From a virus, in the IMG/VR virus record IMGVR_UViG_3300030333_004509, positions 1 through 62,866 of that record: 62,866 nt of DNA. One strand, written 5' to 3'. The notes beneath the pieces were generated by a model. That model had not been told where the DNA came from. It saw only the letters and a list, made by a program, of their open reading frames with translations, and made no database searches. Position numbers and translations under genes: made by a program. Shown one piece after another: positions 3,146 through 40,544 of this stretch; position 1 is the stretch's first letter, and the number at the start of each line of letters is the position of its first letter.

Positions 3146-3152
3146 TAGTATC

Positions 3153-7497: not shown

Positions 7498-7654
7498 CGG
7501 GCTCACCCCTACGTACTGGTTTAGGCCTGAGTCCTTCTTTGCGCTTTTCCTCGAGATCGAGAAGTAGCCGAGTCTGATCAGGCGTCATCTTCTCCTCTGG
7601 TATAGCCAGAAGGTCCAAGTACTGCTTCTTTTCCGGGAATGTAAGGCTAGGCAT
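7490..7654 (-). CDS. 54-residue helical protein between terminase and portal
   Basis: The protein begins MPSLTFPEKKQYLDLLA and is mostly charged helix. It overlaps the upstream 46-residue gene by 8 nt and the portal start by 8 nt, so the three are translated as a chain. Its size and place suggest a small terminase- or head-associated factor, but I see no motif. Confidence 0.6.
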   Translation of the reverse strand: MPSLTFPEKKQYLDLLAIPEEKMTPDQTRLLLDLEEKRKEGLRPKPVRRGEPDA

Positions 7655-21700: not shown

Positions 21701-23022
21701 GCGGAGAGATAAAGACGCGGAAGGATGAGATCGATCGTATCGAGCTGAGGCCTCTTGGTTTCTTGGGCCCTGATGAGAAGCCTAAATATCGAGTCGGCAT
21801 CAGAACTCAACAGGGTCTGACTCAGCGAAAATACACGCCTCCTATGGAGCTCTTGGACAAGACTATTAGAGGTACCGAGCCTGAGGCAGTAAGCGAGGTA
21901 CAGGACAGGTTGATTGCTCTGGGTATCACTGAAGGTGGTACAGACGACGACTTCTACACTGGCCTGGAGAGGGCGCTAAAAGACTTCCAGACAAAGCAGG
22001 GCCTAACAGTCACGGGCACGACCACCGAAGAAACATGGCGTAGGCTTAGAGAGCTTACACCCGGCATCGTTGTGGACAGAGACGGTGACGGCAAAGAAGA
22101 CGAGGTCGAAACCTACACTATCGTCAGCATTGACGGGGAGACGAAGGATCGGATTCGATACGATCAAAGTGAAGACATTTACTATGTGCGCACCGAAGAC
22201 GCTAAGGACAAGAGTCTTCGCGATGTGTCGGATGTAACAGGGTCTGACTGGAAAGCGATACCCTGGAGCATTACAGACGCGGACGGAGAGCCGAGGAGAA
22301 CTGAAGCAAGCAGAAAGCTTGAGTCCCTGTTGTTCGACAGCGGGATTAGCCGTGAGGCGTTGAATTACCGTGACGTAGGAAAGGAAAATCGTGAGCGCTT
22401 CTACGACATCATGGAGGCGATCGGAGAGGGTACAGCCGACGCTGACGACTGGCGTGACCTGAAGTCCCTGATTGATCCTACTAAGCCTGACAGGCCGGTA
22501 GATATCGAGACAGAGGAGCCTATCGAGGTGTCAAAAGTTGATCCTTCTAAGGGGTCGACACTAAAGAAGAAGCCGACACCGACACCGACACCGACACCAG
22601 TTCCGACTGGCCCGATCACTGTCGCGGATGACAAGCCTGATGAGGTAGAAGAGATCCCAAAAGTAGCAGATACTGTCGAGTCTCATCCCTTCATGGTCGC
22701 TAAGGAGAGGCAAGAACAGGATGCGGCTAAGAAAGCTGAGATTGATTTTATACGGGAGTCCTTAGAAGACAAACGTAAGCGCACAGCGCAAGCGACGATG
22801 GAAGCTATCGGGCTCGATGCGCTGTCCGCCACAAAGCCTGAGCCTAAGCCTGCGACTACACCTGAGCCGCCCCCGAGTGGTGAGCCCTCAAAACCCTTGA
22901 CTATGCGACAGAAATTACTCGAGAAGTTTAAGCGGCGGAAAGCAGGCTCTGAGGTCGAAGTCCCCTCAGCCAAAACACCCCCATTGGGTGAGACTCCCGT
23001 AGCGGAAGAGGAAGAGGAATAA
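18790..23022 (+). CDS. Internal virion protein with peptidoglycan-binding domain
   Basis: A 1410-residue, mostly helical acidic protein. Residues ~1030-1092 (EAVSEVQDRLIALG ... ALKDFQTKQGLTVTGTTTEE) form a clear PG_binding_1-like domain. Four calcium-loop-like DxDGDG motifs start near residues 332, 452, 827 and 1096. A Thr/Pro repeat linker (KKKPTPTPTPTPVPTG) sits near 1255-1270. No lytic catalytic site was recognised. A role in crossing the cell wall at ejection is inferred from the wall-binding domain and from position. It ends in TAATG with the next gene. Confidence 0.65.
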   Translation: MSFYQMYMSTLGYSGVPAGTSTRDPEAVDMYQTLIKTIGRYRTATGKRLAQQEIALLKSQVAIAKTNADMIGMIHGVDADNADSVRDALVTHRRTIQDNRTKLVAARSQYNDRLMQYVREDYRKASGNPNAAAWEALTGGLLDGPEGTAADIEIPQLLMSMREEGYEGIQFDKDFNITYNAYSGTTLGKNIVRMFEKAKQVQARQASAAASLDTEMANLGSTVMFDDKTWATMSEEQKVKALKDSLGTVESITKTVRDSDGITRFDKSQEVLNELEEHDTYVKAAEGDLDKLRTELFGAKAASSDVMGKGIQALVDSGWAESNGFELGRYIDSDGDGIPDNYVEGPDDRKAMLAWRRQLKRGTSRYGMRGGSTGMWVEMQVALSDDQVNEYRTTSGFAYVGETPEDGRWMSGAQIDAELERAVSSPVKLVEINGGEDYVVMNSSGDFFRYADSDGDGADDYFIEITDDERAALQAKVADGTYKTTYLRAGTEVDKDGNFVSGSLATDADIITEPGDPTKLTAEDFEDLWDISPDDPKIQAMLQARALSDMGVKFVDEATFKSLKSHRVVGRLKKQHAYDDLVRGVGTVRVETEYGEKAFTPDQIIGNPKVVSKKSNMTFRSVVDRAQGAYVADQLGYGTEGVPTEPKTFQRGGTVFEDEADVRDNAYDWLETQVGNLPESPGLAEIRDQLAMGTAEGIQEIEGSIDVTQSQLAAVEKNLSTFDAATERMIENLTEPEKSAVRRDRTEERDRLVGERNEIQNELAKLERQKARAERQFKRQATPEVEEEVATEIVGRDRARTQREREKSIASDAERYNALLKNFVEADDDGDGVPNGIKGLVNDDDLEFFLDYLVMEDSGEKARLVDKGLITEADLDKARDAAASRGMIKSRTEAAYADRYKIGALSDEIHEVGGLRDQLTDHMNNIETMKPQVEATLKAVQAKGRTEPVTAEEKEILAKYYKELDDLSKVRGEIKTRKDEIDRIELRPLGFLGPDEKPKYRVGIRTQQGLTQRKYTPPMELLDKTIRGTEPEAVSEVQDRLIALGITEGGTDDDFYTGLERALKDFQTKQGLTVTGTTTEETWRRLRELTPGIVVDRDGDGKEDEVETYTIVSIDGETKDRIRYDQSEDIYYVRTEDAKDKSLRDVSDVTGSDWKAIPWSITDADGEPRRTEASRKLESLLFDSGISREALNYRDVGKENRERFYDIMEAIGEGTADADDWRDLKSLIDPTKPDRPVDIETEEPIEVSKVDPSKGSTLKKKPTPTPTPTPVPTGPITVADDKPDEVEEIPKVADTVESHPFMVAKERQEQDAAKKAEIDFIRESLEDKRKRTAQATMEAIGLDALSATKPEPKPATTPEPPPSGEPSKPLTMRQKLLEKFKRRKAGSEVEVPSAKTPPLGETPVAEEEEE

Positions 23023-26000
23023 TGCCTGAAGAGACCGAGATACCGATTCCGGGTGAAGATGTAGGCACCTCGACAGGGAAGAAGAAGAAGAAGAAGAAGA
23101 AGAACACAACTGTTGGGTCGACCGAAACTGATTCGGGCGAAACTACTAAGTCTCAGCGTGTTGTTATCCCTGAGGATAAACCTGAGGATACGGGTGAAGT
23201 CGAGAGTGAGTCTCAAGCTGGACCTCCGATCGAGGATCAGCCCGAAGAAGACACTGGACCTACAACTAGTGCTCAGCCACCCTCAACCTATAAGCCTAAG
23301 CCAGTAGATCCTGAACCCGTAGTCAAACCTGAGGTTAAGCCCTCGAAGCCTATTGTTCCTGCGGAGGTGAAGGCCGCGAGGAAAGCTCGAGCAGCGCACG
23401 ACACGGACGAGGCTCGACTCTACGGGTACTTAGGACCGGATGTTCCGCAGACGGAAGCACGACTTACGACAGATGTATTCAGGTCCGAAGAAGCTCAGAA
23501 CGCTCTGACTCCGCTTATCAGCGGCGAGACAATCGACGAGCAGAGAGCTGATTACTACAAGAGACTCATGGCTGATGTACCTCAGCCTATTCAAGACGCT
23601 TTCGGTCACAAGGGCATGGGGCTGTATAGGATGTGGGATGATATCGCATACCGAGCAGCTGTCGAGTCGGGCAAGATAGATGAGAAGACTATCGGGGTTG
23701 TACCTCACGACTCAATGCTACCTGGAGCTAGACACTCAGGGTTTCAACCTCTAAACCTTTTCGACATCGTGCTCGTCCCCCAGATAATGGCTGATGAGCA
23801 GACAACTGACAGCTTCATTGGGCGGATTGACGATGTTGCAGCGAAGATGCTTGACCCAAAAGACCTCGACGAGAGTGGGATCAGTAAGACTGCGCAGGAA
23901 TATGTTGAAGGCTTATCCTTGCCTGAGCTCCATGCACTAGACACTAAGATCCTCCCCACGATGATATACAATCTTGCAGGTCAGCATTATGGTTATGACC
24001 CAGCGGTAATCGAAGCCTACCAGGCAATGACTGGAGGCGAGTTACCTCAAGATGTTAACGGGAGGCCTATCTCTGCGTATAAGACTCAGTCAAGTGGTGG
24101 TGGAGCTTTCGGTGTACAAGAGCTGGTTCCGAGAGAGGGTTCACCCTATGCAGATGATCCCGAGCAGTACAAGTCATTCTTACTAGTGCACGACAGGCTC
24201 AGGCTGCTTGTCGATCTCGAGACACAAGAACGGGAAGCGAAGTCTGAGGAACTTCGCATGGGCGCCGACGAAGCCGAGGTAGAGCGCCGCGAGACAGAAG
24301 TTATCGGAGCTCGAGGTGGGGTGAGTATTGCTCGAGAAGTGCTCGAGAACCGAGGCGAGAGCCCACCTGAGATAGGTACAATCGAGTATGAGCGAACTAC
24401 CAGTAATGGGCGTATTTCGGACTATCAAAGATTACTTGCAACCCCCTATCTCAGTCACGACCGCTATGTACCGGTGGACTCTATGCCCGGTACTTACAAA
24501 GGCTATGACCAGGGTGTGGTTGACACCTACCGAGAAGAGGCTCGAGTGGTGGGGACATTTGCGTCTGGAGGCAAAAGACCGACACCCGCACCGGGTCGGG
24601 TAATGCCCGCCACTCCACAAAAGAGGGTCTCACTCCCTGGAAGTGAGAGGATTGTAAGTGTGCAGCCTCTGCGGCAAGCTATGCCCAGACCTGAATCAGG
24701 TCTCTCGCTTCCAGCTATGGGCGGACCACCACCACCATCACCGTTTGAGCCCGGAGAACTTTGGTCTGTCAAGAAAGGCTTCATCGCAAAAGTAACCCCG
24801 ACTCACACAGCCAGCGAGGGAGTAGCCTACTTAACTAGGAGCGACGATAACGACCCTCGCATCACATACGCTACCGTTGATCCTACCATTAAGCCTCACC
24901 CTCTGGATGTTGACCGCAAGATACGTCAGCTCAGAGATGCGGGTGAAGACGAGAACGGGAACACCGTAGACGACGCTTACATCAATCGCTTCATGGCACG
25001 CATGAACACGTCGCCTGATGAGATCGATACTTATCGTCGACTTATTCAGGCTGAAGAAGAGCACCTGGCTCGGCTGTTTAGTCGCGAAGGCGGCGAGGGC
25101 GGCACGACTAGAAACGTCCGAATCGAAAACTTAAAGAAAGAGATCAAAGACCTGGAAGCTGAGAGAGCTACCTTGACGGCAGAGCGTGAGGGTCTCGAAG
25201 AATCCCCTGAGGGTTATAGTCGAGGTACAGCCATTAACCGAAGACTGAAGGCGATCGCAGCCGAGATCCCCAAAGCACAAGCGGATGTCGACAGGTTGTC
25301 TGAGACTCGGAGGATGCGCACCGTAAGCCCCGCATCAGGTGAAACGATCTCTATGGACATAGAGCGATACCCGCAGAAAGCGGATGAGAGCCCGCTCGAG
25401 TATATGCGTAGGCTCGCGATCTTACGGGTCGATCTGAAGGTACGCATCGCTCGAAATAAGAACGTGATTGCAGCTCTAAGAGAGAAACAGACTAAGCTCG
25501 AGTCCACTAAGGCAGCCCCCACAGACGAAGCATGGATTGAGTTTATCGGCTCTCTGGAAGAGGTGATGAATGAGCGGGCTGTGCAGGCAAGAGAGTCCGA
25601 AAAGTATTTAACTGCGGCTAGAGCCGGTAGTGCCGCTGTTGGTGCTGGTCGAAATAGACCGGATGACCCTGAAGGTACCGCTATTGAGAAGTTCGGTTAC
25701 ATTCAACCTCCGAGACCTTATGCCGAGTATATATGGGCAGAAAGTCCCGATATCGAAGAGATCGGTTACCCCGTGTACTGGCTAGATGACGGTAACGAGC
25801 ATACCCACGGAGACGCACGACACCCGATTGCCATCAGACAAGGTCTTGTCTTCAATCGAAGGCTGACACTTACAGATAAAGAAGACAAATACGGCCCTAT
25901 AACCGGCTACTGGGTGACGATAGAAGAAGACAAGCTAATCAACCAGCTGTTAAAAGTGCGGGACGAGCAAGATGCTGAAGCACAAAAGCTGCAGGAGCAA

Positions 26001-26087
26001 ATTGAGGCCGTCAATGCTAAAGTCAGGGAGCTCAACCGGGTTACTGGAATGGAGCAAGAACAGCTTAGGCTGATAGGTGGTATCTAG
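23022..26087 (+). CDS. 1021-residue internal-virion-type protein
   Basis: The N-terminal ~100 residues are low complexity: a run of eight lysines (residues ~20-27), then Ser/Thr/Glu- and Pro-rich sequence. Next is a helical region (FGHKGMGLYRMWDDIAYRAA), and then long coiled coils at ~680-760 and ~800-870. The C-terminus contains a small beta/helix part. I recognise no catalytic motif. It overlaps the 1410- and 4190-residue genes by one base each, suggesting co-production as a complex. Probably an ejected core protein; function otherwise unknown. Confidence 0.55.
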   Translation: MPEETEIPIPGEDVGTSTGKKKKKKKKNTTVGSTETDSGETTKSQRVVIPEDKPEDTGEVESESQAGPPIEDQPEEDTGPTTSAQPPSTYKPKPVDPEPVVKPEVKPSKPIVPAEVKAARKARAAHDTDEARLYGYLGPDVPQTEARLTTDVFRSEEAQNALTPLISGETIDEQRADYYKRLMADVPQPIQDAFGHKGMGLYRMWDDIAYRAAVESGKIDEKTIGVVPHDSMLPGARHSGFQPLNLFDIVLVPQIMADEQTTDSFIGRIDDVAAKMLDPKDLDESGISKTAQEYVEGLSLPELHALDTKILPTMIYNLAGQHYGYDPAVIEAYQAMTGGELPQDVNGRPISAYKTQSSGGGAFGVQELVPREGSPYADDPEQYKSFLLVHDRLRLLVDLETQEREAKSEELRMGADEAEVERRETEVIGARGGVSIAREVLENRGESPPEIGTIEYERTTSNGRISDYQRLLATPYLSHDRYVPVDSMPGTYKGYDQGVVDTYREEARVVGTFASGGKRPTPAPGRVMPATPQKRVSLPGSERIVSVQPLRQAMPRPESGLSLPAMGGPPPPSPFEPGELWSVKKGFIAKVTPTHTASEGVAYLTRSDDNDPRITYATVDPTIKPHPLDVDRKIRQLRDAGEDENGNTVDDAYINRFMARMNTSPDEIDTYRRLIQAEEEHLARLFSREGGEGGTTRNVRIENLKKEIKDLEAERATLTAEREGLEESPEGYSRGTAINRRLKAIAAEIPKAQADVDRLSETRRMRTVSPASGETISMDIERYPQKADESPLEYMRRLAILRVDLKVRIARNKNVIAALREKQTKLESTKAAPTDEAWIEFIGSLEEVMNERAVQARESEKYLTAARAGSAAVGAGRNRPDDPEGTAIEKFGYIQPPRPYAEYIWAESPDIEEIGYPVYWLDDGNEHTHGDARHPIAIRQGLVFNRRLTLTDKEDKYGPITGYWVTIEEDKLINQLLKVRDEQDAEAQKLQEQIEAVNAKVRELNRVTGMEQEQLRLIGGI

Positions 26088-29000
26088 TGAGCGATTACGA
26101 GGACACGCCGGAGGGACTCCCTGAACCTGAAGTCCCTAAGATTGATGATACTTATGGCCTCCGCGAGGAGGACATCAAAGAGTATATGGACATCGCAGGC
26201 GTCAGCCGTCAGAAGGCTATTCGAGTTTTAGCCCCCAATCTCGGAGCTCAAGTTGCGCAACGAGAAGCAAAGCTGGACATACGTAAGCAGCAAGATGAAG
26301 TAGTTGATCGCCTCGATATTACCGGTTTAGGTAACAAGCTGAAGGGCAACCAAGGCGCGATCGAAATGGGCTTGACCCCGCGCTATACAGATCACAACGA
26401 CGTATTGGATAAGCACGCTCAATCAGTCGGTATGTCAGCGGATGAATATCGCCAAGAACTTGGAGCACTCAACGTCGGGTACGAAGCTCTGGTCGAGGAC
26501 ATCGTTACGCGCGGACGACCAGTAGAGCACGCACTCAAGATGGCGGATAAACGTGGGTCACTGGCAAGAGTGGATTCCCGTACACGCGAGATTGAGCAGA
26601 CTGGTCATTACCTCCAGACAAAAGCCCGGGTCTTAGCTCGTACCGATCCTGAGGCAGCTAAGGAGTTAGGGATTGAGATTGATCCTATCTTCGTTGACGA
26701 AGAAAGCTCCTTTGGCCTAAGCGGCACCTCTGAGTATGAGAGGCGACAAGTCGTATCTCAGCCAGGCGAATACGGATTTCAAGCTGCCCAGATGCAAGCT
26801 GAAGCCTTGGTGACCTCAAACCCTGAGCTTGGTCAATGGGTCAAAGAGCTCAGCGCAAGTCATGTCGGTGGCGATACTTACATCACTCGACGCGCTACGC
26901 AGAAACTCGATAAGTGGAAGGCGGCAAACCCTGGGTACGACCAGAAAGAAGCAGAAGACTTGGAGAAAGTCTTCATCGACCAAGCCATGGAAGAGCTGGG
27001 CATATTCAAGACTATTGGTTGGTGGCAGATGCCCATCTTCATGTCTTCGCGGTATCGGTATGGAGATGCGAAAGACGATAGTTTTATTACAGCAATGGCG
27101 CCTCAGATTGAGATTGTCGGCCTTAACAACAAGGGTCACGTCGTTACTCGGACTGCAGGTGCAGGGCAGTATGGGATAAAGACCGTCGACTTTCTTCAGG
27201 CCGGTGTTGTTGGCGGCTTGGCTACGATAGGTACCGAAGAAGACTGGTGGAGTGGGTCTAAGCGAGGTATCGCGAATCAACGTGACTTCTTAGAGTGGTC
27301 TCAAGATCTAGCAGGTCATGACGCAAGCACCATAAAGAAGGCAGGCTACGGTATAGCCGCGTTGCCATTCTTGCTGCTTACCCCAGACGCACTATTCGGT
27401 ACAGCAGGCGCAGCCAAGATCGCTGGTCGCGGCGGCAAGCTTGTGCGCAAAGGTGCGGTAACTCGCAAGCACATGACTTCGATTGAAGACATTTTGTCAG
27501 GGGCTAAAGGCGGCGACATTGATGCGCTCACCATGGCAGACATCGAGCGGATCCAAGCACTCGATAAGAGCCTGATGCTGAATGACGAGATTGCGGAGCA
27601 GATGGACCTATTGGATGGTCAGATCGGTGCCTTCTTGGGTCGATCAAATCCATATACAGGCTTTACGTTTGTCAAGGGTGAGCCTAACAAGGGCATAAAG
27701 CTGGCCGACGATCTACCCGGTAATCTGGGTGGTCAGGGTATCAATCTTCACCCCACACGAAGAAAGGCAAGGGCTAAAGCTCAGGCGCAAGAGTTAGCCG
27801 AGCGTGAAGCCAGGGCTAAGGCGAAGGGCAAGGTCGAGAAGAAGGGCATAGAGATTGAGACGCCCAAGGTCGAGATACCCGACCTCTACGACTATGCCGG
27901 TCATCTGAAGAGGATTCGTACTGCGAGAAAAGCCGTGGATGATCTGGATGTCGGGGACTTTGCTCCGCGGCTCGACGCAGACATTACGTCTGAGTCCGTG
28001 CGGATCACGAATATCATCTCAGATATTGCTGACGCCGAGGTCGCAGCGAACTTTCGTCTGAAGATGAAGGGCAGCTTAGATGACGCGCTGAAGCGGCCTG
28101 GTGTTCCTGCGAGAGGTGCGAACACGGAAGACGCGGCTCGTTTTTGGTATTCCGATATGGTCGAGGAAGTACGCAAGCTTCCAGGCATGGAGAAGGCAAC
28201 TGATGAGCTTGCTGCGATTGACCGAGCTCTTGCCGCGGGGGAGATCACCGAGGCAGAAGCTAAGGCGGCAAGAAAGCCGTTCCAGGCACAGGCTGCAGCA
28301 CGTCGACAAGTCTACAACCAGCTTGAGTCTATCGCTAAGAAGGCGCAAAAGATTGCAGACGACAGCCCTCTGAAGAGAACAAAGCAAGCATTGGATCGTG
28401 CTGAAGAGGCTGTCAAGGCAAACCTCGAGAGTCGCATCGCTGCTTGGTACGTGTTGCATGACCAGCTACAGGGCGGGCTGTTGTTCAAGGGTCGACGTCG
28501 AGTAAACCCGCTGGCTGAAGGTAGTAAGCTAGCCAACAAGATCAAAGACTTTATTGATCTCACGCCAGATGCTCAGAACTTCGCAGGTATGCTGCAGAAG
28601 TACTTCAACATGAGCCAAGCAGAGGCCGACGCAAACGCCCGACTCTTTGATGCCGCAGCTAAAGCGTGGGCCTACCAGAATCAGCGCACCCCGCATGACT
28701 GGTGGAAGCGTACAATCGCAGGCGTCAAGTCCAAGGAAGACTTCATTGAGCGGTTCAAGAATGGGCCTCCAGATGTGACTAATCCTCCAGGTAAGGGAGG
28801 TAAGGTTACGCCTGACGGGGATGGACCCACACCTGATCCTACCGGGATGGTACCTGTCGTCGCCCCTCACTGGCAGGGCAACATGAACACTGTGGCAGGT
28901 CGAGCATCTACGGCTCTACCCGATGGCTACAGACTTGAAGGGTTTGGCGGCGAGGCTCTCGAGTTTCCCTCTGGTATCGGACCTAAGGGTGACCGCGGAC

Positions 29001-32000
29001 TGATGAACAAGCTGGCTATCCGCATCCGAAACGCGGGAGTCGATATTGATCCATACAGAACAAGCAAGAAAGACTTGTTCGAGTCAATCAATAAAGGTCT
29101 GCTTGAGCTCTCCGAGACAGCGAATGGTCGTGTAGTTATTGACGAGCTGGTCGAAGAAGGATTCTTCCGTAATATCGGTCAACGTAACTGGAAAGTTATT
29201 GGTCCCGATGGCAGTGTCGTCAAGGAAGTCACGAACAGTGATGCGCTGGATGTAGTAGCGCAGGCAGTCGAGAAGCTTCTTGATGACGGAGTCATGGTCC
29301 GGCACGCAGAGGACATGGGCGGGGACATTCGTGTAGGTCCGGTGGTTTACGGTATGTCACACGCAGCTGTCCGAGCTGCCCTGAAGGATCATCCAAGGGA
29401 AGTCGGAGTTCACTTCATCGGAGATCAGCAGATCTTCAGATTTGGAGATGAGTTCGACGACAAGGTTAAGTACGGTCATGACAATACCGCGGCACTAGCT
29501 AAGCGGCCTGACCATGTCGCGTATCACAACCACCCAGACCCTGAAGGTTATCGGAACTGGTTCTCTCGGGATGACTTGATGTTCTTCCCCTTCTTGGCGC
29601 TCAGAGAACAGCGCGTAATCATGGCTGACGGTAGTGTGCTTCAGCTCGAGATGCTGGGAGATGCTGGATGGAACGGCTGGAACAATCTCAGTCACATTGG
29701 CCGCCTCTTTAACGGTGATTACACTACTGTCGCCGAGATGGAGCGTGGCGATGCCGTGTTCCACGCCGTGTTAAGAGACTACTCAGAGAGGATAGACAAT
29801 GACGTATTTGAAGCCGCAGAAGCCGCGCACAGGGCCGATGTCAACGCCGGAAAGTTCGGCCCCCGACCAGAAGCCGGACCCGAGCTCGTCGAGTACAACA
29901 AGCGCCAAAATCGGGCTCTCTTTGAATCCCTCTCCAGAAGATATGAGAAACTACTTAAAGAAGATTACGGAATCGATGCCCGAGTTACCGTCTACGAAGG
30001 ACGGATTCCTGATAGACGACTCGCACCAGATGTTGAAGCAGTTTCGGATCCCCGCCCCGTCGCCCGAGAAGGGGAGCTCCGAGTAAAGGATCCGATAGAG
30101 CCTCTTGCTGTAAAGCGAGCAGACGATACACCGCAGGTACCGGTAGAAGAAGAGTTCACCAGCTTAGTTAAGAAGCTTGGTCCAGACGGGCTCAACGCAC
30201 TGAGCTTTAAGTCAGACGACTTTATGCGCAATGTCATAACGCGCAATCAGTCAGGCACCGTTACGTCTGAGGTAGTTGAGTTTATTCCCGTCGACAAGAT
30301 CGGCCTGGGTAGGCTTGCTAACCTGGGTGACTGGCGCGTCACAGATAACGCGAAGATAGAGCAAGCTAAGAATCTGCTGAGGGGGTTCATAAACGACTAC
30401 AGACAGAAACTTGTCGACATAGGCGCTGTTAAGAAGGTCGATAATAAAGATCGAATTCAGTACCGAATAGATCGCGAAGAAGATGTGTGGGACACGACAT
30501 GGATGAACTATGACGCCAACGTAGAGGCGGCTATCCTCAGTGACGCCTGGTTGGACGGACCAGTCAGCATCCTCGCACATACCGCGCATGACCTGGACCG
30601 TCAGTTCGCAATGCTGTCGCGAGACATATTCAGTCCCGCTGAAGTCGCCGCCATCAAGCAGGAACTTGCAAGCGACCCTCGTATACTAGACGCGATTGAG
30701 CTGATTAACGAAAGCACAGCGTATAAACCAGGCAGACAACCGCGATTTTACCGAGAGAAAAAGGAGGCTCCGACTAAGTTATCGGCTGACCCGCAAAACA
30801 ATGAGGTGGCGACGTTCTTGGGTACCCTGCGGGCATCACCTGAACCTTTCGGTGAAGCAGCAGATAACTTCAAGCAAAAGCTATTGGTGCTAAAGGATCA
30901 CGCTAGTCAGCTTGGTGACTTACTCGTACCTTATCAAGATAAGTTCTTAGGCCTTATAGCTGATGACGACAACCTGATTCAACTGGCCCTCGTAGCTGAC
31001 GCTAGACGGAACTCGGGATTCTTCAAGCAGACAAGTCAACCGGGTAATATATCCGATCATTGCCGGAAGATAGCCACCTTAAAATGGAGGCTGCGGACGG
31101 GTGACTTCAAGGGCGGGAGTATAGATCCGGCAATACAAGAGATTGCAAGTGATCTCTTGCCGACAGAGCTTGATCTTCAGAGGATGTTAGCTGACGAACA
31201 AGCTTTTCTACGCAATGAGCTAGATATTCTAAGGGGGCAGTTACAAAAAGAGCGGCACCAGCTTGTCCGAGATCTACGTGTGTTGGACACGATAGGTATA
31301 ATCAACGCTAAAAATGCAAGTTTCGATTCTACTATCGCCGAAGCCAAGGCCCGACTACAGTCGCCCGTAAATTCAGCCTTTGAATATATGGAACTGATGA
31401 ATATGGGAGGTCCGCCTAAGACTCACATGTACGGTCTTCGCGTTCGAGATCCTGAAAAACTTCAGGAATATATTACAAGCGTCGAGACTAAGCTCAGAGA
31501 CCCGTCCTTGGAGGCTGAGAAAACAGCGCACCTGCTGGGTCGAAGACGTGAGCTCAAAGATCACTTGTTTATTCAGAGCCGGTGGCGCAAAATGCTCGAG
31601 GAGGCGAGTAAACGACCAGGCAGCTACCTCGAGGAGGCAGTACCGACTCTCACGAAGACTGAAGAGTTTGCGCCTCCAAACTTTCCGGGTCTCGATAAAC
31701 ACTTCAACCCGCGAGACGCAGAACGTATCCGCAATGAAGTGGCGTGGCTGCAAGATCCCGAAAACGTCGGGATGGATGATGGGTCGCCCGTAGTCGCGGG
31801 TATCGGACTCGACAGCGGCTCGTCTGTCACAGTTATGCTCTTGGACGAAGGCTACATTGAGATCCAGCCCACAGATATGCTCAGTCAGCTGGAGCGGATG
31901 GAAAGATCCGATGCTTACGAATATGTCGGTGTCCCCCACCTAAAAGGTTTCCTTTCACCTAAAGCCGAGACCTCCGCGCCAACTATCACAGAGTTCAATA

Positions 32001-35000
32001 TGTTCACCGCGGATGTTAAGCATGAGGAGATCAGCGCTCGAGCCCGAGATCTTCAAGGCGAGATAGCTCGCGCAGCCCATGCTGTGCGGAACTTAGCCTC
32101 AGAAATAAGAAGCGGTATAACTTATGCTGGCGACGGTAAGCAGGTATACCGAGACTACAAGTATGGCTTAGGACGATTCGCGTCCTTAATGACGGACTCG
32201 ATCCGCGAAAGCAAGCACAGCTTCGTCGCCCTGGATAACGCAAAGAATGTCCCGATTAGTTCTCCGGCCTTGGGCTTAGGAGAGACCGTCCTCGAGAACT
32301 TGGCACGTCAAGGTGTTCCAGCAGACACCTCAGTTCACACACTCGTCGGTATGCTGAATAACCGTACATCGTTGATGCACAACCTCAGCCCAACAACTCG
32401 AGAAATCATCGAGCGTAGAGCTTTCGACCAAGACATGATCCGGCATGCGAGCGCCGCAGAGTCTCACGAACTCATGGTTAGTCAGGTGAACGCTACACCT
32501 TGGTTCCACGCTACGCAGAGCGACTTTAATATCTACGACTACTCCCTCAAGTACTCAGGTAAGCATTACGGTAATGCCTTTGGTCCAGGTCTATACTTGG
32601 CAGAGAACCCTGAACTTTCGGTTGTTAAGTACATGGCAGGCGCAGGTCTGGGCACACGGACTATTCCTGATGCTCGCAATCAACTTGCTGCCGTCAAGGT
32701 TAACGCACGAAACATAATCGACATCCGCGGGTACCCCGAGGACTTAGCTAACCAGTTCGATGAACTTGGTATGCCGATGGAAGCCTTAGTTCTTCGAGGT
32801 GGATACCAACCCTTGACTCAAAAGCTTCTGGACGAAGCCACGGGGAGAACGCGAACTCGCACAGGCGCTACTTTTTACAGAGGCTACATGACACCGACTA
32901 GGATGTCTAACGAGGGCCTCTTCAATGCGAGCAGCGAGATCCATCTCATAAGTAGGGCGCAAGCAAAGTTGCAGAGCATCGCGGAGGAGCTGGGTCTCAA
33001 AGCTGCCGATGTCACGGATGACGCGCAATACGCGACCCTCACAAGTGACGAGTCTCTGATGTCCCGCTTAGATACGGATAGGCGGACGTTTGGAGCTCAC
33101 CCGAGCGATGAAGCTATTTCTGACATCGAAGCGCTCGCTAAAGCAGGTGATTCAGAGCCATTCCCCGTACCAGGAAGTGAGCCGATTCCGGGGTTCTTTT
33201 ATACGCCTGCGGCAGAGAGCTGGCTCTGGCGTGAGATGCTCATGGATAACGCGGCGCACATCGCTTACGATCCGAGATTCTACTCGAGAGGTGGCGCCGA
33301 GATTATCGCAGACTTGAGCCATCGAGACATGGCATACCAGCTTGATCGGCTCAGATATGAGACATCGCAGAAGTTCAGAAATCGTTCTGTGAGTCGCGCC
33401 CCTGATGCGTGGAATATGCTTCGTAAGATGTATTCTGGTCGAGGCAAGCAGCTCAGAGCCGCGGAGAGCGGATCCGACACGATGCGTGCAGTCCAAGAGG
33501 CTCGACAGAAAGATCTACAAGAGTGGGTGCACCAGTCATACGAGACTGACGCAGGCACTCAGCGATTCCCTGAGCTACCTGAATATCCTGGTGACGATAG
33601 CGTAGGCTTTACAGGCGACCCTCCAGACACTCCGTCAGAAGAACTGCAGCTACTCGAAAACTTTGCTCGAGAGGTTCTCGACGCAGCTAAGGAAGGTAAG
33701 CTCGACAAATACGCAACAGGTGAGCGGAGGATCTTTGGAGACATACACAGTGAGTACCAGCCTTGGGACGTGGATGATCATGTCTTTGGCTGGAACATAC
33801 TGGATAGTATCGGATCTATTGAGTACAACCTACCCACCGCTTCAGGGCAGACAGAGCTCCCAAATCTTAGGCGTCTTGCACGACTTCACAAGAGGGGTAG
33901 GCTTCCCCCCGGAGGTTTGAATAAGTTTAAGCTCAACATGATCCAGACTTTGGAGCACAACGGAATCAATACCCTGGATGATCTTCGTGTCTACTACAAC
34001 ATGGATCGAACTCGTCGGGCTGACACCGTGTTCCGTCTTAAGGGACCGGATGGAAAACAGCTGGATAAGCCTTCCTCAGAGTACCTAACCGCCCTGGTTC
34101 TTGGCGGCGGTATTGCCGCACGCGCACCTAAGCAAGCTGACATTAGCGGACTCATAGAGCGCTGCCACAAGTTCCTCGACGCCCGTGCGCCGACCAAGAT
34201 TGATCTGCACACGATGCTGATGAATAACAACGTCGACGGAGCTCTACACTTTGGGTCTATGGACTCCAACGTGCTTATCTTGTTCGACCCCATGGCATCT
34301 AAGCTGGACAACGCTGTTGAAGTATTGGTCGAGAAGGGTCGAGTCTTCGACGACGACATTCTCTATCACACACGTAGAGTCGACGATCTTATCGAAGAAG
34401 AGAGAGCCGCGGTCGAGTTCTTGGATGATGGACGCGCAGTCATTTACGCTCTCGGAGAACCCGATCCAGTCTCAGTGATTCATGAGCTCGGTCATATTCT
34501 TCGGCGCCAGATGTCGAAAGATGACCTGGATGGCGTCACGGCATATCTGAATAAGAAGCTGGGTCTTGAGGGTGAAGACGCGCTTACTCACAAGGGTAAC
34601 AAGTTTGTCGGCTCAAAAGAGAACGTCAGGAGAGCTGAAGAGCACTTCGCAGAAGCCTTCGAGGCTTATGTAGCTCGAGGTACGGCAGCAACCGACATTA
34701 AACCTGCGTTCTCCAGGCTCAAGGTATTCCTGGGCCAGGTTGTTGCTCGCATGACCCGCAGTAACCAGACCATAGATATCGACCCTGATGTCGAGGTGTT
34801 CTTTGACAAGCTGTTGAAGGAGACCCCTGACGCAGAGCCAATCCTTAGGCGCGTGTCAGGTAGAGTACAGGAGCACATGAACATCTCAGGTACGGGTAGT
34901 CCCTTCCCTGAAGTCAGCGCATTCGAGTTCTTCTCAGAAGAGTCTCGTCGCGTCGGAGCTACGCATATCGGTACAAAGCTTGATGCGGATGGCAATGTAA

Positions 35001-38000
35001 CCGAGACTATTGAGCTGACGCGCGAAAGCCTTGAAGCCGAATACGACAAGCTGCAGAACCTGGTGGATTCAAAGAAGCTTGACCCAGAAGAAGCGGTGCT
35101 TCGGATTGTCGATGAAGACGGTAACGCTGTTCCTGTCATGCACGACATGTATGATGGTGGTAAGTCGACTTTCGACCTGAATGATGTAGGTAGTCTCCAA
35201 GTCAGGCTGGAGCGAGAAAGAGCGGAAGCTCTTACCGCCACAATGCCCATGGCTCACACTAAGTCTGCCGCACACGCGGTCAAGGAGTTCAGCCCGATTG
35301 AAGCGCTTCAGTCTCGCCTGGCTACCCCCGGCGCAAAGGCGGGTATCGGTCGAGCCGCACTGTTCACGTTCTTTGGTGGTGATCCCAACAAGGCGCTGAG
35401 ACTGCTACCCCCGATGCAACGCATGGAGATACGGGCGGGATCTCGGTCTGTCGAGCAAGCCATCGGTGAGTGCGTCACGTTGGTCGCCGAGGCGAACCAA
35501 TATGAGAAGGGTGGCTTGGGTAAAGTCGTTAAGTATCTGACGGGTGAGATACTGAACTTCGAGTTCGGTGGTAGATCTGTCATGAGTTCGGGGTGGAACT
35601 CCGCGAGCTCGGTCGCTGACGCAATCCGAGTCTCTGCAACGGAGGCTCTCGAGACAGATCACAAGGCTCTTATGGGAGCTCTGACTGTCTTTATTGAGCG
35701 CACAAAGCCTCACAAGGCAGATGAACGGACCTTCACCGAGATGTTCGACCAGTTTGCTCGTAACGACCCTGATGCGGCACAGCTCTTAGACAAGGCCATG
35801 CATCGCATGTTCAAGGGTAAAGGTAGCTTCCTGTCTGACGTAGGTAATGTGATTCAGATCGGTAAGAATCCCACACCTGAAGAGTACAAGTTGCTCGAAG
35901 CGCTGCTGTACTTCTCGGGCAGCACTAAGAGAAACGGTAAGCTGATCGATGATGCGGGGCTTACGTGGGAGCAGAGAACTACGAAGCTCTTCGACGAAGT
36001 CAACAAGATCTACGGACCTAAGGGTGATATCGTAACGAAGAAGATGGCCTTGGTTATGGCCGGTCACGGCACTGCAGGTAGAGTCTTCCGTAGCTGGACA
36101 GACATGGGCGTGGCTGTCGAAGAAGATGTTGTCGCCGCGTTCAAGAAGATGATGATGGGTGAGGCTATCAGTCCTGAGATCCGACCCAGGGTCATGGATG
36201 TGGTGCGACGCTACGGGTACAACCCGTTCTTCCTCGAATCAAGCATGTTGGATGCTGGCTACCACCTACCACTTCAAGCCCGTAAGAAGCTGAGCGAAGC
36301 TTTGGCTCGCGGGCTGGAGAAAGCTGACCCTCGAGTAGAGAAGTGGGAGAAGCTCGGTAATATACCCGCTTCATTCCAGAAGTTCCTGGGCAGTGAGCAG
36401 AACATGAAGAGCGTGTTCGGTGCCTGGTTCCGGTACATGAAGCTGCGCATGACTCGCGGTGCCGTGATGATTCGGCCACGCTACTTCCTGATGAACACGA
36501 TCGATCACTTCACCCAGATGGGTATGGTAACTGGTATACGTCCCGCTTTGATCTCTACGGTCAGGCTCAGCGCTCAGAATGCCTTGGCTGTTCCAGGAGT
36601 CAATAAAGCTTTGGCTATTCTCGAGAAAGCATCGACCCTCCCTGCAGGCGGCAAGTACCAAATCAAGGTTGAGCAGGCGCGAAAGATTCTGCAGAGTGGT
36701 GGTGACGCAGTTGCAAATGCGCTCGGTAAGATGATGGGTGCGTCTAAGTACAACATCAAGTTGAATGATATTCTCGAGGGCAAGCCAGGCACATTCAAGG
36801 TTACTGACAAGAATGGCTTGATCAAGGTCTACAGCTACCAAGACATCCGGGCCATCATGGTTCAGGAGGGTATCTTCGCGACCTTCGACACGACAGCTCT
36901 GGGCAAGGTCGTGCGAGAGAGCGTAGAGAACCAATGGAGAGGTAGCACTTTTAAGGATGCAAAGACGAAAGCTCGGTACCTGGCGGAAGACCTACTGTTC
37001 AACTCGATTGATGACATCGCTGAAGCTTGGTCAGAGCGTGAGCGTGCCGGTGCCGTGATTACATTGATCGAGATGGGCTATGATCCCAAGACAGCTTCTC
37101 GAATGACCATTGATGCTCTGTACGATTATGCAGGCACTATGACTTCGATAGATCGGCATTGGCTGATGTCGCTTATGTTCCCCTTCTGGGCTTATCAGAA
37201 GAACGCGAACCGGCAAATCTTCAACATGATGTTTAGTCCGAGAGGTGCCTACCGCATGGGCGTGATCCGACGATTCCATGAAGGCTCTACTTACCTCGCA
37301 AGTGAGCTGTACTGGAGCGCAATCGTTGATCCCTACGGTGTCTACTACGACGGCTTAGATGATAACCAGAAGAAGACTTACGACGCTGTCCGTACTCGCA
37401 TCGAGTTCGGTTACGGACCTATCGACGAGCTCTCGGATGAGCATCGTGAACGCATGGAACGTGCGTTTAATGTACAAGACCTTAAAGATCTAAGCGCTGA
37501 GCAAATCAACATCATTGAGAACGGCTACGGCTCTCCAAGTCAGCAGTCTCCCAAGGTACGTACAGCAATCATGAGATTGTTTGCTGGGCATGGTTCAGGT
37601 GCTGTCCGAGTTACGGATGGTCGAATCCTGGATATGTCAGACTTCATGTCGATCTACTCTGGGTACGACTCATCCGGCGCTGACTACTACAACGTGACCG
37701 GTGAAGAGCTACGCACGCCCCTCTCAGGCTACGACCCAGATGCCTGGGTCAAGATGTCAGTCAAGGAAAAGGAGCGACTTATTCTTAACGCTAAGTTGGA
37801 AGAGTCAAAGACAGCTTTCCGTATGGCAACTCTACCTCGACCTCAAGAGCATGAGCTCCCCTCGTATTATCGAGATCGCGCCTTCATCTCCATCCCACCC
37901 ATCTTCGACAAGAATACACAGCAATACCACAAGCTACTTCAGGACACGGGACACGAATCTCCTTGGACAGGTGTATTCCTGCCAGAAAACACAATCCAAG

Positions 38001-38659
38001 GCGGGTTCGGTCACATGGCGAACATGACAGCCTTCTACCTTCTTGCGGGTGAATGGGTGCTCGGATCTAACGGCTTGCACTTGATCGACGACAAGGACGA
38101 AGGCTCGGCTATGCTTGGGTATGCGATGAACAACGCACTCGAGGAAGTCGTAAATGTACGGAATGCGCCGATTGCGGGTGAAGTGCTTGACTGGATCTCA
38201 GACGAGAAGATGCAGTACCCAAGACGGATCTCGGATACTACCGCGAACTTGATTGAATCAAGCGGGATTCTGGGGATGATCCCTGTGTTGCGGACACAAG
38301 AGGTGGCCGAGTGGATGGAGGAAGATGAGCGGCGTGCGGCATTCAAGGAAGGGTGGGTCGCTGCAGAAGAAGCCGAGATGGCTGGAGCTCGAGTTCGCCC
38401 AAGACGTAATTACATTCCGCCAGGTATGATCACGTTCCTCTTTGACAACAGTCCTCTCGGAGAGTTTGACCGCATGATGAAAGCTTGGGAGATGACTCCG
38501 CAAGAAGAGACTATGGAGTTTCAAGGTCAGCTCTACCGCTGGGCACGTACTTTGGCGGGGGCGGATATCCAAGAGATTCGGGGTAGCCGCACTGCATCGC
38601 TTGAAGAACCTTATAGCATGCGCAAGTTTAGAGGCATGCCTGAAGAACCAATGGATTAG
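26087..38659 (+). CDS. Giant polyvalent virion protein (JAMM, ART and zincin signatures)
   Basis: A 4190-residue protein starting at GTG (TAGTG overlap). Visible parts, in order: a helical N-terminus with a hydrophobic stretch near residue 425 (AALPFLLLTPDALFG); a JAMM/JAB-like metallopeptidase site H1147-N-H1149-P with S1160 and D1163; an ADP-ribosyltransferase-like segment with H2141 (WFHATQSDF) and Y2170 (FGPGLYLAEN), plus an ART-like end near 2715 (NVDGALHFG ... LILFDP); a zincin HELGH at 2799-2803 with EEHFAEAFEAY downstream; and a C-terminal ~1000-residue helical region with membrane-like patches (HWLMSLMFPFWAY) and the RTPLSGY motif near 3876. This matches the concept of phage polyvalent proteins. 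Ejection into the host is inferred from position. Confidence 0.75.
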   Translation: MSDYEDTPEGLPEPEVPKIDDTYGLREEDIKEYMDIAGVSRQKAIRVLAPNLGAQVAQREAKLDIRKQQDEVVDRLDITGLGNKLKGNQGAIEMGLTPRYTDHNDVLDKHAQSVGMSADEYRQELGALNVGYEALVEDIVTRGRPVEHALKMADKRGSLARVDSRTREIEQTGHYLQTKARVLARTDPEAAKELGIEIDPIFVDEESSFGLSGTSEYERRQVVSQPGEYGFQAAQMQAEALVTSNPELGQWVKELSASHVGGDTYITRRATQKLDKWKAANPGYDQKEAEDLEKVFIDQAMEELGIFKTIGWWQMPIFMSSRYRYGDAKDDSFITAMAPQIEIVGLNNKGHVVTRTAGAGQYGIKTVDFLQAGVVGGLATIGTEEDWWSGSKRGIANQRDFLEWSQDLAGHDASTIKKAGYGIAALPFLLLTPDALFGTAGAAKIAGRGGKLVRKGAVTRKHMTSIEDILSGAKGGDIDALTMADIERIQALDKSLMLNDEIAEQMDLLDGQIGAFLGRSNPYTGFTFVKGEPNKGIKLADDLPGNLGGQGINLHPTRRKARAKAQAQELAEREARAKAKGKVEKKGIEIETPKVEIPDLYDYAGHLKRIRTARKAVDDLDVGDFAPRLDADITSESVRITNIISDIADAEVAANFRLKMKGSLDDALKRPGVPARGANTEDAARFWYSDMVEEVRKLPGMEKATDELAAIDRALAAGEITEAEAKAARKPFQAQAAARRQVYNQLESIAKKAQKIADDSPLKRTKQALDRAEEAVKANLESRIAAWYVLHDQLQGGLLFKGRRRVNPLAEGSKLANKIKDFIDLTPDAQNFAGMLQKYFNMSQAEADANARLFDAAAKAWAYQNQRTPHDWWKRTIAGVKSKEDFIERFKNGPPDVTNPPGKGGKVTPDGDGPTPDPTGMVPVVAPHWQGNMNTVAGRASTALPDGYRLEGFGGEALEFPSGIGPKGDRGLMNKLAIRIRNAGVDIDPYRTSKKDLFESINKGLLELSETANGRVVIDELVEEGFFRNIGQRNWKVIGPDGSVVKEVTNSDALDVVAQAVEKLLDDGVMVRHAEDMGGDIRVGPVVYGMSHAAVRAALKDHPREVGVHFIGDQQIFRFGDEFDDKVKYGHDNTAALAKRPDHVAYHNHPDPEGYRNWFSRDDLMFFPFLALREQRVIMADGSVLQLEMLGDAGWNGWNNLSHIGRLFNGDYTTVAEMERGDAVFHAVLRDYSERIDNDVFEAAEAAHRADVNAGKFGPRPEAGPELVEYNKRQNRALFESLSRRYEKLLKEDYGIDARVTVYEGRIPDRRLAPDVEAVSDPRPVAREGELRVKDPIEPLAVKRADDTPQVPVEEEFTSLVKKLGPDGLNALSFKSDDFMRNVITRNQSGTVTSEVVEFIPVDKIGLGRLANLGDWRVTDNAKIEQAKNLLRGFINDYRQKLVDIGAVKKVDNKDRIQYRIDREEDVWDTTWMNYDANVEAAILSDAWLDGPVSILAHTAHDLDRQFAMLSRDIFSPAEVAAIKQELASDPRILDAIELINESTAYKPGRQPRFYREKKEAPTKLSADPQNNEVATFLGTLRASPEPFGEAADNFKQKLLVLKDHASQLGDLLVPYQDKFLGLIADDDNLIQLALVADARRNSGFFKQTSQPGNISDHCRKIATLKWRLRTGDFKGGSIDPAIQEIASDLLPTELDLQRMLADEQAFLRNELDILRGQLQKERHQLVRDLRVLDTIGIINAKNASFDSTIAEAKARLQSPVNSAFEYMELMNMGGPPKTHMYGLRVRDPEKLQEYITSVETKLRDPSLEAEKTAHLLGRRRELKDHLFIQSRWRKMLEEASKRPGSYLEEAVPTLTKTEEFAPPNFPGLDKHFNPRDAERIRNEVAWLQDPENVGMDDGSPVVAGIGLDSGSSVTVMLLDEGYIEIQPTDMLSQLERMERSDAYEYVGVPHLKGFLSPKAETSAPTITEFNMFTADVKHEEISARARDLQGEIARAAHAVRNLASEIRSGITYAGDGKQVYRDYKYGLGRFASLMTDSIRESKHSFVALDNAKNVPISSPALGLGETVLENLARQGVPADTSVHTLVGMLNNRTSLMHNLSPTTREIIERRAFDQDMIRHASAAESHELMVSQVNATPWFHATQSDFNIYDYSLKYSGKHYGNAFGPGLYLAENPELSVVKYMAGAGLGTRTIPDARNQLAAVKVNARNIIDIRGYPEDLANQFDELGMPMEALVLRGGYQPLTQKLLDEATGRTRTRTGATFYRGYMTPTRMSNEGLFNASSEIHLISRAQAKLQSIAEELGLKAADVTDDAQYATLTSDESLMSRLDTDRRTFGAHPSDEAISDIEALAKAGDSEPFPVPGSEPIPGFFYTPAAESWLWREMLMDNAAHIAYDPRFYSRGGAEIIADLSHRDMAYQLDRLRYETSQKFRNRSVSRAPDAWNMLRKMYSGRGKQLRAAESGSDTMRAVQEARQKDLQEWVHQSYETDAGTQRFPELPEYPGDDSVGFTGDPPDTPSEELQLLENFAREVLDAAKEGKLDKYATGERRIFGDIHSEYQPWDVDDHVFGWNILDSIGSIEYNLPTASGQTELPNLRRLARLHKRGRLPPGGLNKFKLNMIQTLEHNGINTLDDLRVYYNMDRTRRADTVFRLKGPDGKQLDKPSSEYLTALVLGGGIAARAPKQADISGLIERCHKFLDARAPTKIDLHTMLMNNNVDGALHFGSMDSNVLILFDPMASKLDNAVEVLVEKGRVFDDDILYHTRRVDDLIEEERAAVEFLDDGRAVIYALGEPDPVSVIHELGHILRRQMSKDDLDGVTAYLNKKLGLEGEDALTHKGNKFVGSKENVRRAEEHFAEAFEAYVARGTAATDIKPAFSRLKVFLGQVVARMTRSNQTIDIDPDVEVFFDKLLKETPDAEPILRRVSGRVQEHMNISGTGSPFPEVSAFEFFSEESRRVGATHIGTKLDADGNVTETIELTRESLEAEYDKLQNLVDSKKLDPEEAVLRIVDEDGNAVPVMHDMYDGGKSTFDLNDVGSLQVRLERERAEALTATMPMAHTKSAAHAVKEFSPIEALQSRLATPGAKAGIGRAALFTFFGGDPNKALRLLPPMQRMEIRAGSRSVEQAIGECVTLVAEANQYEKGGLGKVVKYLTGEILNFEFGGRSVMSSGWNSASSVADAIRVSATEALETDHKALMGALTVFIERTKPHKADERTFTEMFDQFARNDPDAAQLLDKAMHRMFKGKGSFLSDVGNVIQIGKNPTPEEYKLLEALLYFSGSTKRNGKLIDDAGLTWEQRTTKLFDEVNKIYGPKGDIVTKKMALVMAGHGTAGRVFRSWTDMGVAVEEDVVAAFKKMMMGEAISPEIRPRVMDVVRRYGYNPFFLESSMLDAGYHLPLQARKKLSEALARGLEKADPRVEKWEKLGNIPASFQKFLGSEQNMKSVFGAWFRYMKLRMTRGAVMIRPRYFLMNTIDHFTQMGMVTGIRPALISTVRLSAQNALAVPGVNKALAILEKASTLPAGGKYQIKVEQARKILQSGGDAVANALGKMMGASKYNIKLNDILEGKPGTFKVTDKNGLIKVYSYQDIRAIMVQEGIFATFDTTALGKVVRESVENQWRGSTFKDAKTKARYLAEDLLFNSIDDIAEAWSERERAGAVITLIEMGYDPKTASRMTIDALYDYAGTMTSIDRHWLMSLMFPFWAYQKNANRQIFNMMFSPRGAYRMGVIRRFHEGSTYLASELYWSAIVDPYGVYYDGLDDNQKKTYDAVRTRIEFGYGPIDELSDEHRERMERAFNVQDLKDLSAEQINIIENGYGSPSQQSPKVRTAIMRLFAGHGSGAVRVTDGRILDMSDFMSIYSGYDSSGADYYNVTGEELRTPLSGYDPDAWVKMSVKEKERLILNAKLEESKTAFRMATLPRPQEHELPSYYRDRAFISIPPIFDKNTQQYHKLLQDTGHESPWTGVFLPENTIQGGFGHMANMTAFYLLAGEWVLGSNGLHLIDDKDEGSAMLGYAMNNALEEVVNVRNAPIAGEVLDWISDEKMQYPRRISDTTANLIESSGILGMIPVLRTQEVAEWMEEDERRAAFKEGWVAAEEAEMAGARVRPRRNYIPPGMITFLFDNSPLGEFDRMMKAWEMTPQEETMEFQGQLYRWARTLAGADIQEIRGSRTASLEEPYSMRKFRGMPEEPMD

Positions 38660-38712: not shown

Positions 38713-39168
38713 ATGAACTACAACGGCTGGAATCGATACGGAGTTTCTCGGGGTGGTCCGTCAGACCCGACCTCTGCTACAGCACTGACTACGTCATTCC
38801 AAGTCTTCGCCTGCACAGCAGACGCTACAAACCATGCAGGCTCAGCCAACTTTCCCGCGCACTGCATTCTTATGGGCGTCGAAGTAGAGCTCAACGGAAT
38901 CACAGCTGCGTCGGGTACAGAAGTTACTATGTACATTGCTCGAGACGCTGCGGGTGATGTGCCTCTGACACCCAGCACCACCTCAGGTGCGGTGCAAGAG
39001 ATCACTTTCGGGAAGACAACGTCAACTGAAGGTGGGGTGCTCTTCCCCGTCGAAGTGGATTATCACTTCTTCAGTGAGACCGATACAGCCAATAACATCT
39101 ATGTCTGCCTCAAGACTTCAGCCACTGCTGTCAAGGTCAAGCATATCCGCGTTAACTGGAGGGCATAA
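38713..39168 (+). CDS. Small virion surface protein
   Basis: A 151-residue Thr/Ala/Ser-rich beta protein with an N-terminal MNYNGWNRYGVSRGG. The size and composition fit a fibre-base or decoration domain. It has its own promoter and is joined to the following fibre gene by TAATG. Confidence 0.55.
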   Translation: MNYNGWNRYGVSRGGPSDPTSATALTTSFQVFACTADATNHAGSANFPAHCILMGVEVELNGITAASGTEVTMYIARDAAGDVPLTPSTTSGAVQEITFGKTTSTEGGVLFPVEVDYHFFSETDTANNIYVCLKTSATAVKVKHIRVNWRA

Positions 39169-40544
39169 TGGCTCGGTTTAGTGATGTCTTTGCCCCCAAG
39201 AGCCAGACAATCGTCGGCACACTCACAGCGGGTGATCTCGAGGTCGACAGTCCCACACTCAGCATTGACGCGACTAATGACCGTGTCGGCATAGGACTCA
39301 CAGACCCCGACAGTAAGCTGGAAGTTCTTGCCACAACCACTCAACAGAAGTGGTCCTATGACGCAGACAGCTTCGCCACAGTTACCGTTGCGGATGCCAG
39401 CCACACGACGATTGCCACGGGAGAGTCTGGGAACCTTATACTGGATGCGGCGGGTGACATCGAGCTGAACGCTGACAGCGCTGACATCGTGTTCAAGGAT
39501 GGGACGCACCAGCTGGCTAAGATTGCCTCCGGTTCAGCCACCATGACCATCGGTTCTGGCGTAGCCGAGGATACTTTTCTGGTCTTCGACGGTAACGCCG
39601 CTGATTGGCGTATCGGTATTGACGATTCCGCCGATGAACTTGAGATCGGCGTGGGTGGAGCGCACGACACTACTCCTGCGATTATCATCGACACTTCGGC
39701 CAATGTGACCGTAAGCACAGACCTCACCGTAGCTGGCGGCGACATCACCTATGGCAACGGACAGAATGCTACAGCATCCGTCGCAGCTACAGCCCACAAC
39801 GTTGCCGGTAAGAACCTGACCATCACAGCCGGTCCGACAACGGCAGGCACGACGAACAACATTGCTGGTGGGAGCCTGACTCTACAGGCAGGGCAAGGCA
39901 AGGGCTCTGGTGCCGGTGGTGACATCATCTTCCAGACCGCCAACGCGGGGGGTTCAGGTAGTAGCTTGAACTCTTTGGCTACAGCACTCACAATCAGCGA
40001 CGATCTAAGCTCAACATTCACGGGACACGTAGTCTTCGCCGAGAGCACCTCAGTGAAGTGCGGAAGTAACGCCATCCTGTCGGATAGCAGCGGCACGATG
40101 ACACTGTCGAATATCGACGCATTGGACGCCACGACTGAAGCTACGATCGAGAGTGCAATCGATACCTTGTCCAACCTGGCCAGCATCGGAACGATTACCA
40201 CTGGCGTCTGGAATGGGACCGCAATCGCCCAGGCCTATATTGCCGCCGATGCGATTAACGGGGACAAGATCGCCGACGATGCTATTGATTCGGAGCACTA
40301 TGTAGATGGGTCGATCGATACCGCACATATCGCCGACAACCAGGTGACCCTGGCCAAGATGGCCGGGTTGGCGCGAGGTAGCATCATCGTTGGAAACGCC
40401 AGCGGAGATCCAACCGCTCTGGCAATCGGGTCTAACACCTACGTCCTCAAGTCAGACGGAACCGACATCGCTTGGGCCGCGTCTTCCGGGGGCGTTGCCG
40501 TTGACGACCCAAACCTTATTCTTCACACTCAAGTTTTCTCGTAG
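39168..40544 (+). CDS. Tail fibre protein
   Basis: A 458-residue, Thr/Ser/Ala/Asp-rich protein. It has an N-terminal attachment (MARFSDVFAPKSQTIVG), the phage-fibre signature 'DRVGIGLTDPDSKLEV', repeated beta turns (LTISDDLSST, GSLTLQAGQGKGSGAGGD), and C-terminal short repeats (ADAINGDKIADDAIDSEHY, GSIDTAHIADNQV) that are typical of trimeric fibre shafts in marine phages. No chaperone or enzyme domain is seen. It probably contacts the host surface. Confidence 0.75.
   Translation: MARFSDVFAPKSQTIVGTLTAGDLEVDSPTLSIDATNDRVGIGLTDPDSKLEVLATTTQQKWSYDADSFATVTVADASHTTIATGESGNLILDAAGDIELNADSADIVFKDGTHQLAKIASGSATMTIGSGVAEDTFLVFDGNAADWRIGIDDSADELEIGVGGAHDTTPAIIIDTSANVTVSTDLTVAGGDITYGNGQNATASVAATAHNVAGKNLTITAGPTTAGTTNNIAGGSLTLQAGQGKGSGAGGDIIFQTANAGGSGSSLNSLATALTISDDLSSTFTGHVVFAESTSVKCGSNAILSDSSGTMTLSNIDALDATTEATIESAIDTLSNLASIGTITTGVWNGTAIAQAYIAADAINGDKIADDAIDSEHYVDGSIDTAHIADNQVTLAKMAGLARGSIIVGNASGDPTALAIGSNTYVLKSDGTDIAWAASSGGVAVDDPNLILHTQVFS

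Follow-up and report, generated by a model that had tools for sequence, protein, structure and literature searches.

A 4190-residue protein of an uncultured marine phage as a probable ejection protein with exchangeable enzyme cargo

A single gene, P0001, occupies 20% of the window analysed here (bases 1-62,866 of a 70,080-base IMG/VR record from an uncultured marine phage), which raises the question of what one chain of such length contributes to infection. An earlier note on this DNA had described a polyvalent protein bearing three enzyme-like signatures in a partly hydrophobic body. The frame (26087-38659, + strand) begins at GTG, encodes 4190 aa and is unbroken by any internal stop. The three signatures lie where they had been placed, with HxH at residue 1147, ART-like motifs at 2141-2170 and HELGH at 2799. 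The hydrophobic character of the body is weak, with Kyte-Doolittle values above 1.4 (19-aa windows) at ~419-441 and ~1901-1919 only. The parts of the gene are as follows.

26087..38659, + strand: giant P0001, putative inner virion protein that would be ejected carrying polyvalent cargo
26384..28756, + strand: residues 100-890, the conserved and wholly helical N part (psiblast against the family; AF2)
29135..29686, + strand: JAMM/JAB-type domain, residues 1017-1200 (homologue alignment)
29954..32476, + strand: unmatched part of the variable middle, residues 1290-2130 (phmmer slices, PDB sequences)
32489..32731, + strand: ART-like first half (suggestive), residues 2135-2215, with H2141 and Y2170
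34157..34372, + strand: possible ART second half (suggestive), residues 2691-2762, with D2717 and LFDP
34382..34756, + strand: zincin-like domain, residues 2766-2890, with H2799, E2800, H2803 and E2851
35144..37606, + strand: conserved C core, residues 3020-3840, the best-conserved part of the family
37784..38650, + strand: conserved C-terminal tail, residues 3900-4188

Family databases offer little purchase on this protein. Searches of P0001 with hmmscan against Pfam, PHROGs and NCBIfam gave no credible match, and among Pfam LPD profiles set against the N part and C core none was significant (best LPD1, E 0.095). LPD38 was considered as the identity of the C core and dropped, as Pfam LPD38 is absent among the matches of 13 giants. 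The AF2 model of residues 100-1290 (26384-29956) has a strong BFVD match to the unnamed entry A0A516MAA7 (E 1.5e-10) and no match in the PDB. Residues 1290-2130, some 840 in all, match neither the giants of the family (phmmer slices) nor PDB sequences.

The surroundings of the gene are more informative. PHROGs recognises terminase, major head, tail and fibre genes in the window as well as a replication block, and the giant gene is placed among late virion genes. Its neighbours are listed below, with the portal gene.

5782..7506, - strand: portal of the SU10/P22 type (podovirus portals)
18275..18787, + strand: small protein with a hydrophobic N terminus, at a T7 gp14-like position
18790..23022, + strand: 1410-aa protein with PG_binding_1 at residues 1032-1086 (E 1.2e-12), at a T7 gp15-like position
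23022..26087, + strand: 1021-aa protein with no family match, within a coupled gene run
38713..39168, + strand: 151-aa protein immediately 3' of the giant, kept in 44 loci
39168..40544, + strand: fibre-like protein

The start of P0001 and the stop before it share 1 nt, and the same 1-nt overlap joins 18790-23022 to 23022-26087. The two larger upstream products had been called peptidoglycan-binding core proteins, a name that PG_binding_1 bears out for 18790-23022 only. The order of tail, 15900-like, 17492-like, small hydrophobic, PG-binding, giant, 38713-like and fibre genes is kept wherever the related loci reach, with ORFs of 188-286 aa at the place of the small hydrophobic protein in 11 relatives. 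The arrangement resembles that of T7 genes 11/12 to 17. The SU10/P22-type portal and the lack of long-tail families together lead us to infer a short-tail morphology.

Relatives of P0001 became visible only by indirect routes. A scan of viral contigs with the whole protein returned no relatives, as did one with the slice 2090-2760. With the terminase as a bridge query, 80 related contigs were found, the records of which contain giants of about 2.4-4.2 thousand residues, and an alignment of the C core used as query recovered 42 IMG/VR loci (numbered here with the prefix L). Family lengths range from 2,183 to 4,385 aa; the 33 complete giants have a median of 2870 aa and lie between 2183 and 4227 aa. 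This set leaves out L131, whose 4385-aa frame is truncated by the end of its locus. The frame of L121 is split at runs of N (an assembly gap), which was not taken as a genuine break. INPHARED cultured phages gave no tblastn match to P0001 or to a relative's C core, no genome matched in a bacterial and archaeal genome set, and no cultured member of the giant family turned up in the collections searched.

By sequence comparison, the family is one of constant ends and a swapped middle. In P0001 numbering, the constant parts are the N part (100-890) and the stretch from the zincin through to the end (2770-4188). The middle is mostly unshared: within 880-2760, only 936-1200 matches the family by phmmer, in L135 and L136. 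In the nearest relative by C core, L128 (44% identity there), the middle differs, and the searches used found neither a JAMM nor an ART.

Within this middle, the JAMM domain is the best-supported enzyme-like element. Its residues in P0001 are E1105, H1147-N-H1149-P, S1160 and D1163, with an HxH-to-S spacing 3 above the canonical 7. The region 1017-1200 aligns with L135, L136 and L129 at 25-36% identity to the window, and the E, HxH, S, D set is invariant across four divergent homologues. In the AF2 model, which has low to moderate confidence here, strands and helices follow one another around these residues as expected, and a fold search with this low-confidence model gave no JAB match. The Prok-JAB (PF14464) profile and PDB sequences likewise left the domain unmatched, and it is seen in the giant family only. 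As such, the claim of a JAMM signature stands on catalytic residues conserved in divergent homologues but finds no curated family or solved structure to match; we regard the domain as supported by its residue set, with membership of the JAB family unproven.

The ART-like region is a weaker case. WFHAT (H2141) and GLYL (Y2170) are present, and H2141, Y2170 and D2717 fit the H-Y-D active-site pattern described for the ART-PolyVal clade (PMC5512222), in an alignment that is not significant and leaves ~475 residues between the halves. The top match of a deep ART profile inside P0001 falls at 2140-2178 and was equalled in 6 of 300 shuffles. The second half is matched by hhalign at 2711-2740, the expected place, with a weak score, and this possible half ends in an ILY-type tail immediately before the zincin. 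In half-profile and hhalign rankings the expected ART places come high yet near background, and the search window at 2959 outscores them. No ART-PolyVal (PF18760) profile match rose above the cut-off in P0001, and in the AF2 model of 2085-2960 an ART was not built, the zincin alone being confident. Six relatives do carry ART-PolyVal, namely L160 (2.1e-24), L135 (2.4e-21), L136 (1.2e-15), L129, L127 and L131; it immediately precedes the zincin in L135, L136 and L160, and the order JAMM-ART-zincin is common to L135, L136 and L129. The candidate ART of P0001 would resemble PF18760 in the succession H, G-x-G-x-Y, D directly ahead of the zincin, an arrangement shared by L135, L136 and L160, but differs in its non-significant profile score and in the ~475 aa between its halves. 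The ART is thus suggestive in P0001, favoured by position and order and unproven by sequence statistics. It had been claimed too firmly: the motifs are there and the relatives' domains are secure, but the match in P0001 itself is near chance.

The zincin-like domain is common to far more of the family. In P0001 it comprises HELGH (2799-2803) and AEE (2850-2852, with Glu 2851), HExxH being on one helix and the Glu on a later helix, after a sheet. AF2 models the domain at pLDDT 78-95, and Foldseek of the whole AF2 slice 2085-2960 found no PDB match at E <= 0.001. The residues claimed for a zincin are therefore intact and confidently modelled, but no solved structure or curated family matches them. 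The domain aligns in 33 relatives, some of them near-duplicates, with HExxH intact in 11 and lost in 22; the HExxH/AEE pair occupies the same place in 11 relatives. As most relatives lack HExxH, the frame cannot depend on the zincin as an essential protease, and where the motif is lost only a structural role is left to the domain. On the C-core tree, the HExxH state changes at least five times, and ART presence changes at least six times with the window counted as ART-bearing; independent pairs for relating ART to intact HExxH are few on this tree. Release of cargo by the zincin where HExxH is intact would be compatible with the processing idea put forward for polyvalent proteins (PMC5512222).

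Relatives carry further enzymes in the middle: GNAT in L117, L118, L135 and L136, a PBECR5 nuclease in L131, HATPase in L127 and, in the cargo slot of L160, a C5 cytosine DNA methylase (approximately L160:7742-8218, + strand; E 1.9e-22). This methylase could protect incoming DNA. The N-terminal part bears Phage_lysozyme2 in L118 and L124 and M23 in L117; a wall-degrading domain is absent near the N terminus of P0001, and PG_binding_1 is found in its neighbour instead. The family appears to be a delivery frame whose cargo can be exchanged; only part of that cargo can be confirmed from sequence.

On balance, P0001 is probably a giant gp16-like ejection protein of the podovirus type that doubles as a carrier of polyvalent effectors, and it most likely resides in the virion and passes into the host together with the DNA. 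The N part and C core would make up a frame, packaged close to the portal, that exits along with the DNA, as suggested by the gene order and by the wall-degrading domains fused in relatives. The variable middle would hold exchangeable enzyme domains, which in P0001 would be the JAMM (supported) and probably an ART (suggestive). The zincin that opens the C core would most likely cut the chain and set cargo free, either inside the head or once in the host; in the cytoplasm, this cargo may then act early in infection on the host's proteins or nucleic acids. A bolder version is more tentative, and we would sooner bet against it than for it: conserved ends for ejection, headed in some members by a wall-degrading part, would surround one slot whose enzymes are swapped between phages and released by the zincin, and the JAMM, as infection begins, would remove ubiquitin-like or other conjugates made by the host's immunity. 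The picture in the earlier note is right in outline and overstated as to the ART; family architecture and synteny give good support for a candidate polyvalent protein within an ejection cluster of the podovirus type.

The loss of HExxH in 22 of 33 relatives that retain the zincin domain, the non-significant ART in P0001 and the existence of members down to 2183 aa with little middle would also suit a purely structural inner-core protein, an ejection core or DNA conduit whose enzyme-like segments would be passengers in decay or folds with a structural role. We consider this unlikely, since the JAMM residues are invariant in divergent copies, the same slot holds intact Pfam-level enzymes in relatives and the cargo changed repeatedly on the tree. 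Enzyme cargo by itself needs no packaging, and P0001 could be a host-takeover protein made in the infected cell and kept out of the particle; such a role is improbable for a gene whose place is kept in the late virion run from tail to fibre genes, and the wall-degrading modules in the giants of L117, L118 and L124 would be useless in the cytosol.

Two further readings draw on profile matches in relatives. PHROG tape-measure matches occur in a few relatives, plausibly via shared lysozyme or M23 modules, and it is very improbable that P0001 is the tape measure of a long-tailed phage when the portal is of the SU10/P22 type and no tail-tube, chaperone or baseplate family was found among the proteins scanned. 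Least credible is a diverged N4-type virion RNA polymerase. The profile phrog_2206 (virion RNA polymerase) does match middle segments of L116, L119 and L123 around a zincin-like HExxH, but the match is limited to profile positions ~1984-2266 around that motif, and P0001 lacks any polymerase family match (a single-subunit RNAP domain was sought). We also note that the giant of L128 (L128:674-13357, + strand) has two middle HExxH motifs at residues 1332 and 1944, beyond the core zincin at 2911, and that the L123 region matching the N4 polymerase family is that of these extra motifs.

Several known systems resemble the preferred ejection and carrier role. Polyvalent proteins are one precedent for virion-packaged multi-enzyme giants (Iyer et al. 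2017, PMC5512222), and those of phages share with P0001 a very long single chain, a zincin hub, ART (suggestive in P0001) and other enzyme domains, a late virion gene place and predicted injection. The P0001 frame is new by comparison, its N part and C core having no significant Pfam LPD; P0001 has a JAMM in a phage-type protein, whereas the JAB relative RadC was confined to conjugative elements in that study's comparison of themes; and the cargo slot of the P0001 family emerges from a comparison of 41 members. A second precedent is the 3,398-aa virion RNA polymerase of phage DEV (gp71), an ejection protein beside two further ejection proteins (PMC10925440). Like this N4/DEV type (Schitoviridae), P0001 would be a giant ejection protein (~3,400 aa in that case) that bears an enzyme and belongs to a short-tailed phage whose genome is ~70-75 kb, its role being predicted from genes, and a zincin-type module is common to that polymerase and some P0001 relatives. 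P0001 differs in lacking an RNA polymerase domain, in its other cargo, in its greater length and in its SU10/P22-type portal. The locus follows the small hydrophobic, mid-size, largest and fibre order of T7 gp14-gp15-gp16, and in L117, L118 and L124 the largest protein bears a wall-degrading domain near its N terminus, as T7 gp16 does. Compared with the T7 set, P0001 is three times as long, carries enzyme cargo and has an extra mid-size gene beside it; no sequence match links it to T7 or other solved ejection proteins. Finally, T4 Alt is a packaged and injected ART acting on host proteins, as proposed for P0001, but it is a stand-alone ART of the R-S-E clade, while that of P0001, if real, would belong to the H-Y-D clade.

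One gene family would thereby join podovirus DNA-ejection machinery with polyvalent effector proteins. Its constant frame and varied cargo amount to a natural series, which makes the passage of very large enzymes through a short tail approachable. The same holds for the identity of the host-modifying or counter-defence enzymes that phages send in first, because new ones can be read from a known gene slot. The family is of real interest because comparison separates frame from cargo.

Two minor observations concern other genes of the window. The product of 42017-42607 (+ strand), with a weak match to YkuD (L,D-transpeptidase) and a match to phrog_3000, is encoded downstream of the giant in 18 loci and is perhaps a wall enzyme for lysis. 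A 90-aa protein encoded in the portal gene run (1542-1814, - strand) has ~35 aa (RTPL.GY.PD.W....EK.RLIL, 54% identity) in common with the giant at ~3876-3910 (37712-37816, + strand), a stretch that is an insert in the window's giant only and is possibly a shared docking or packaging motif. Related small ORFs occur in L012, as two in tandem, and in L016.
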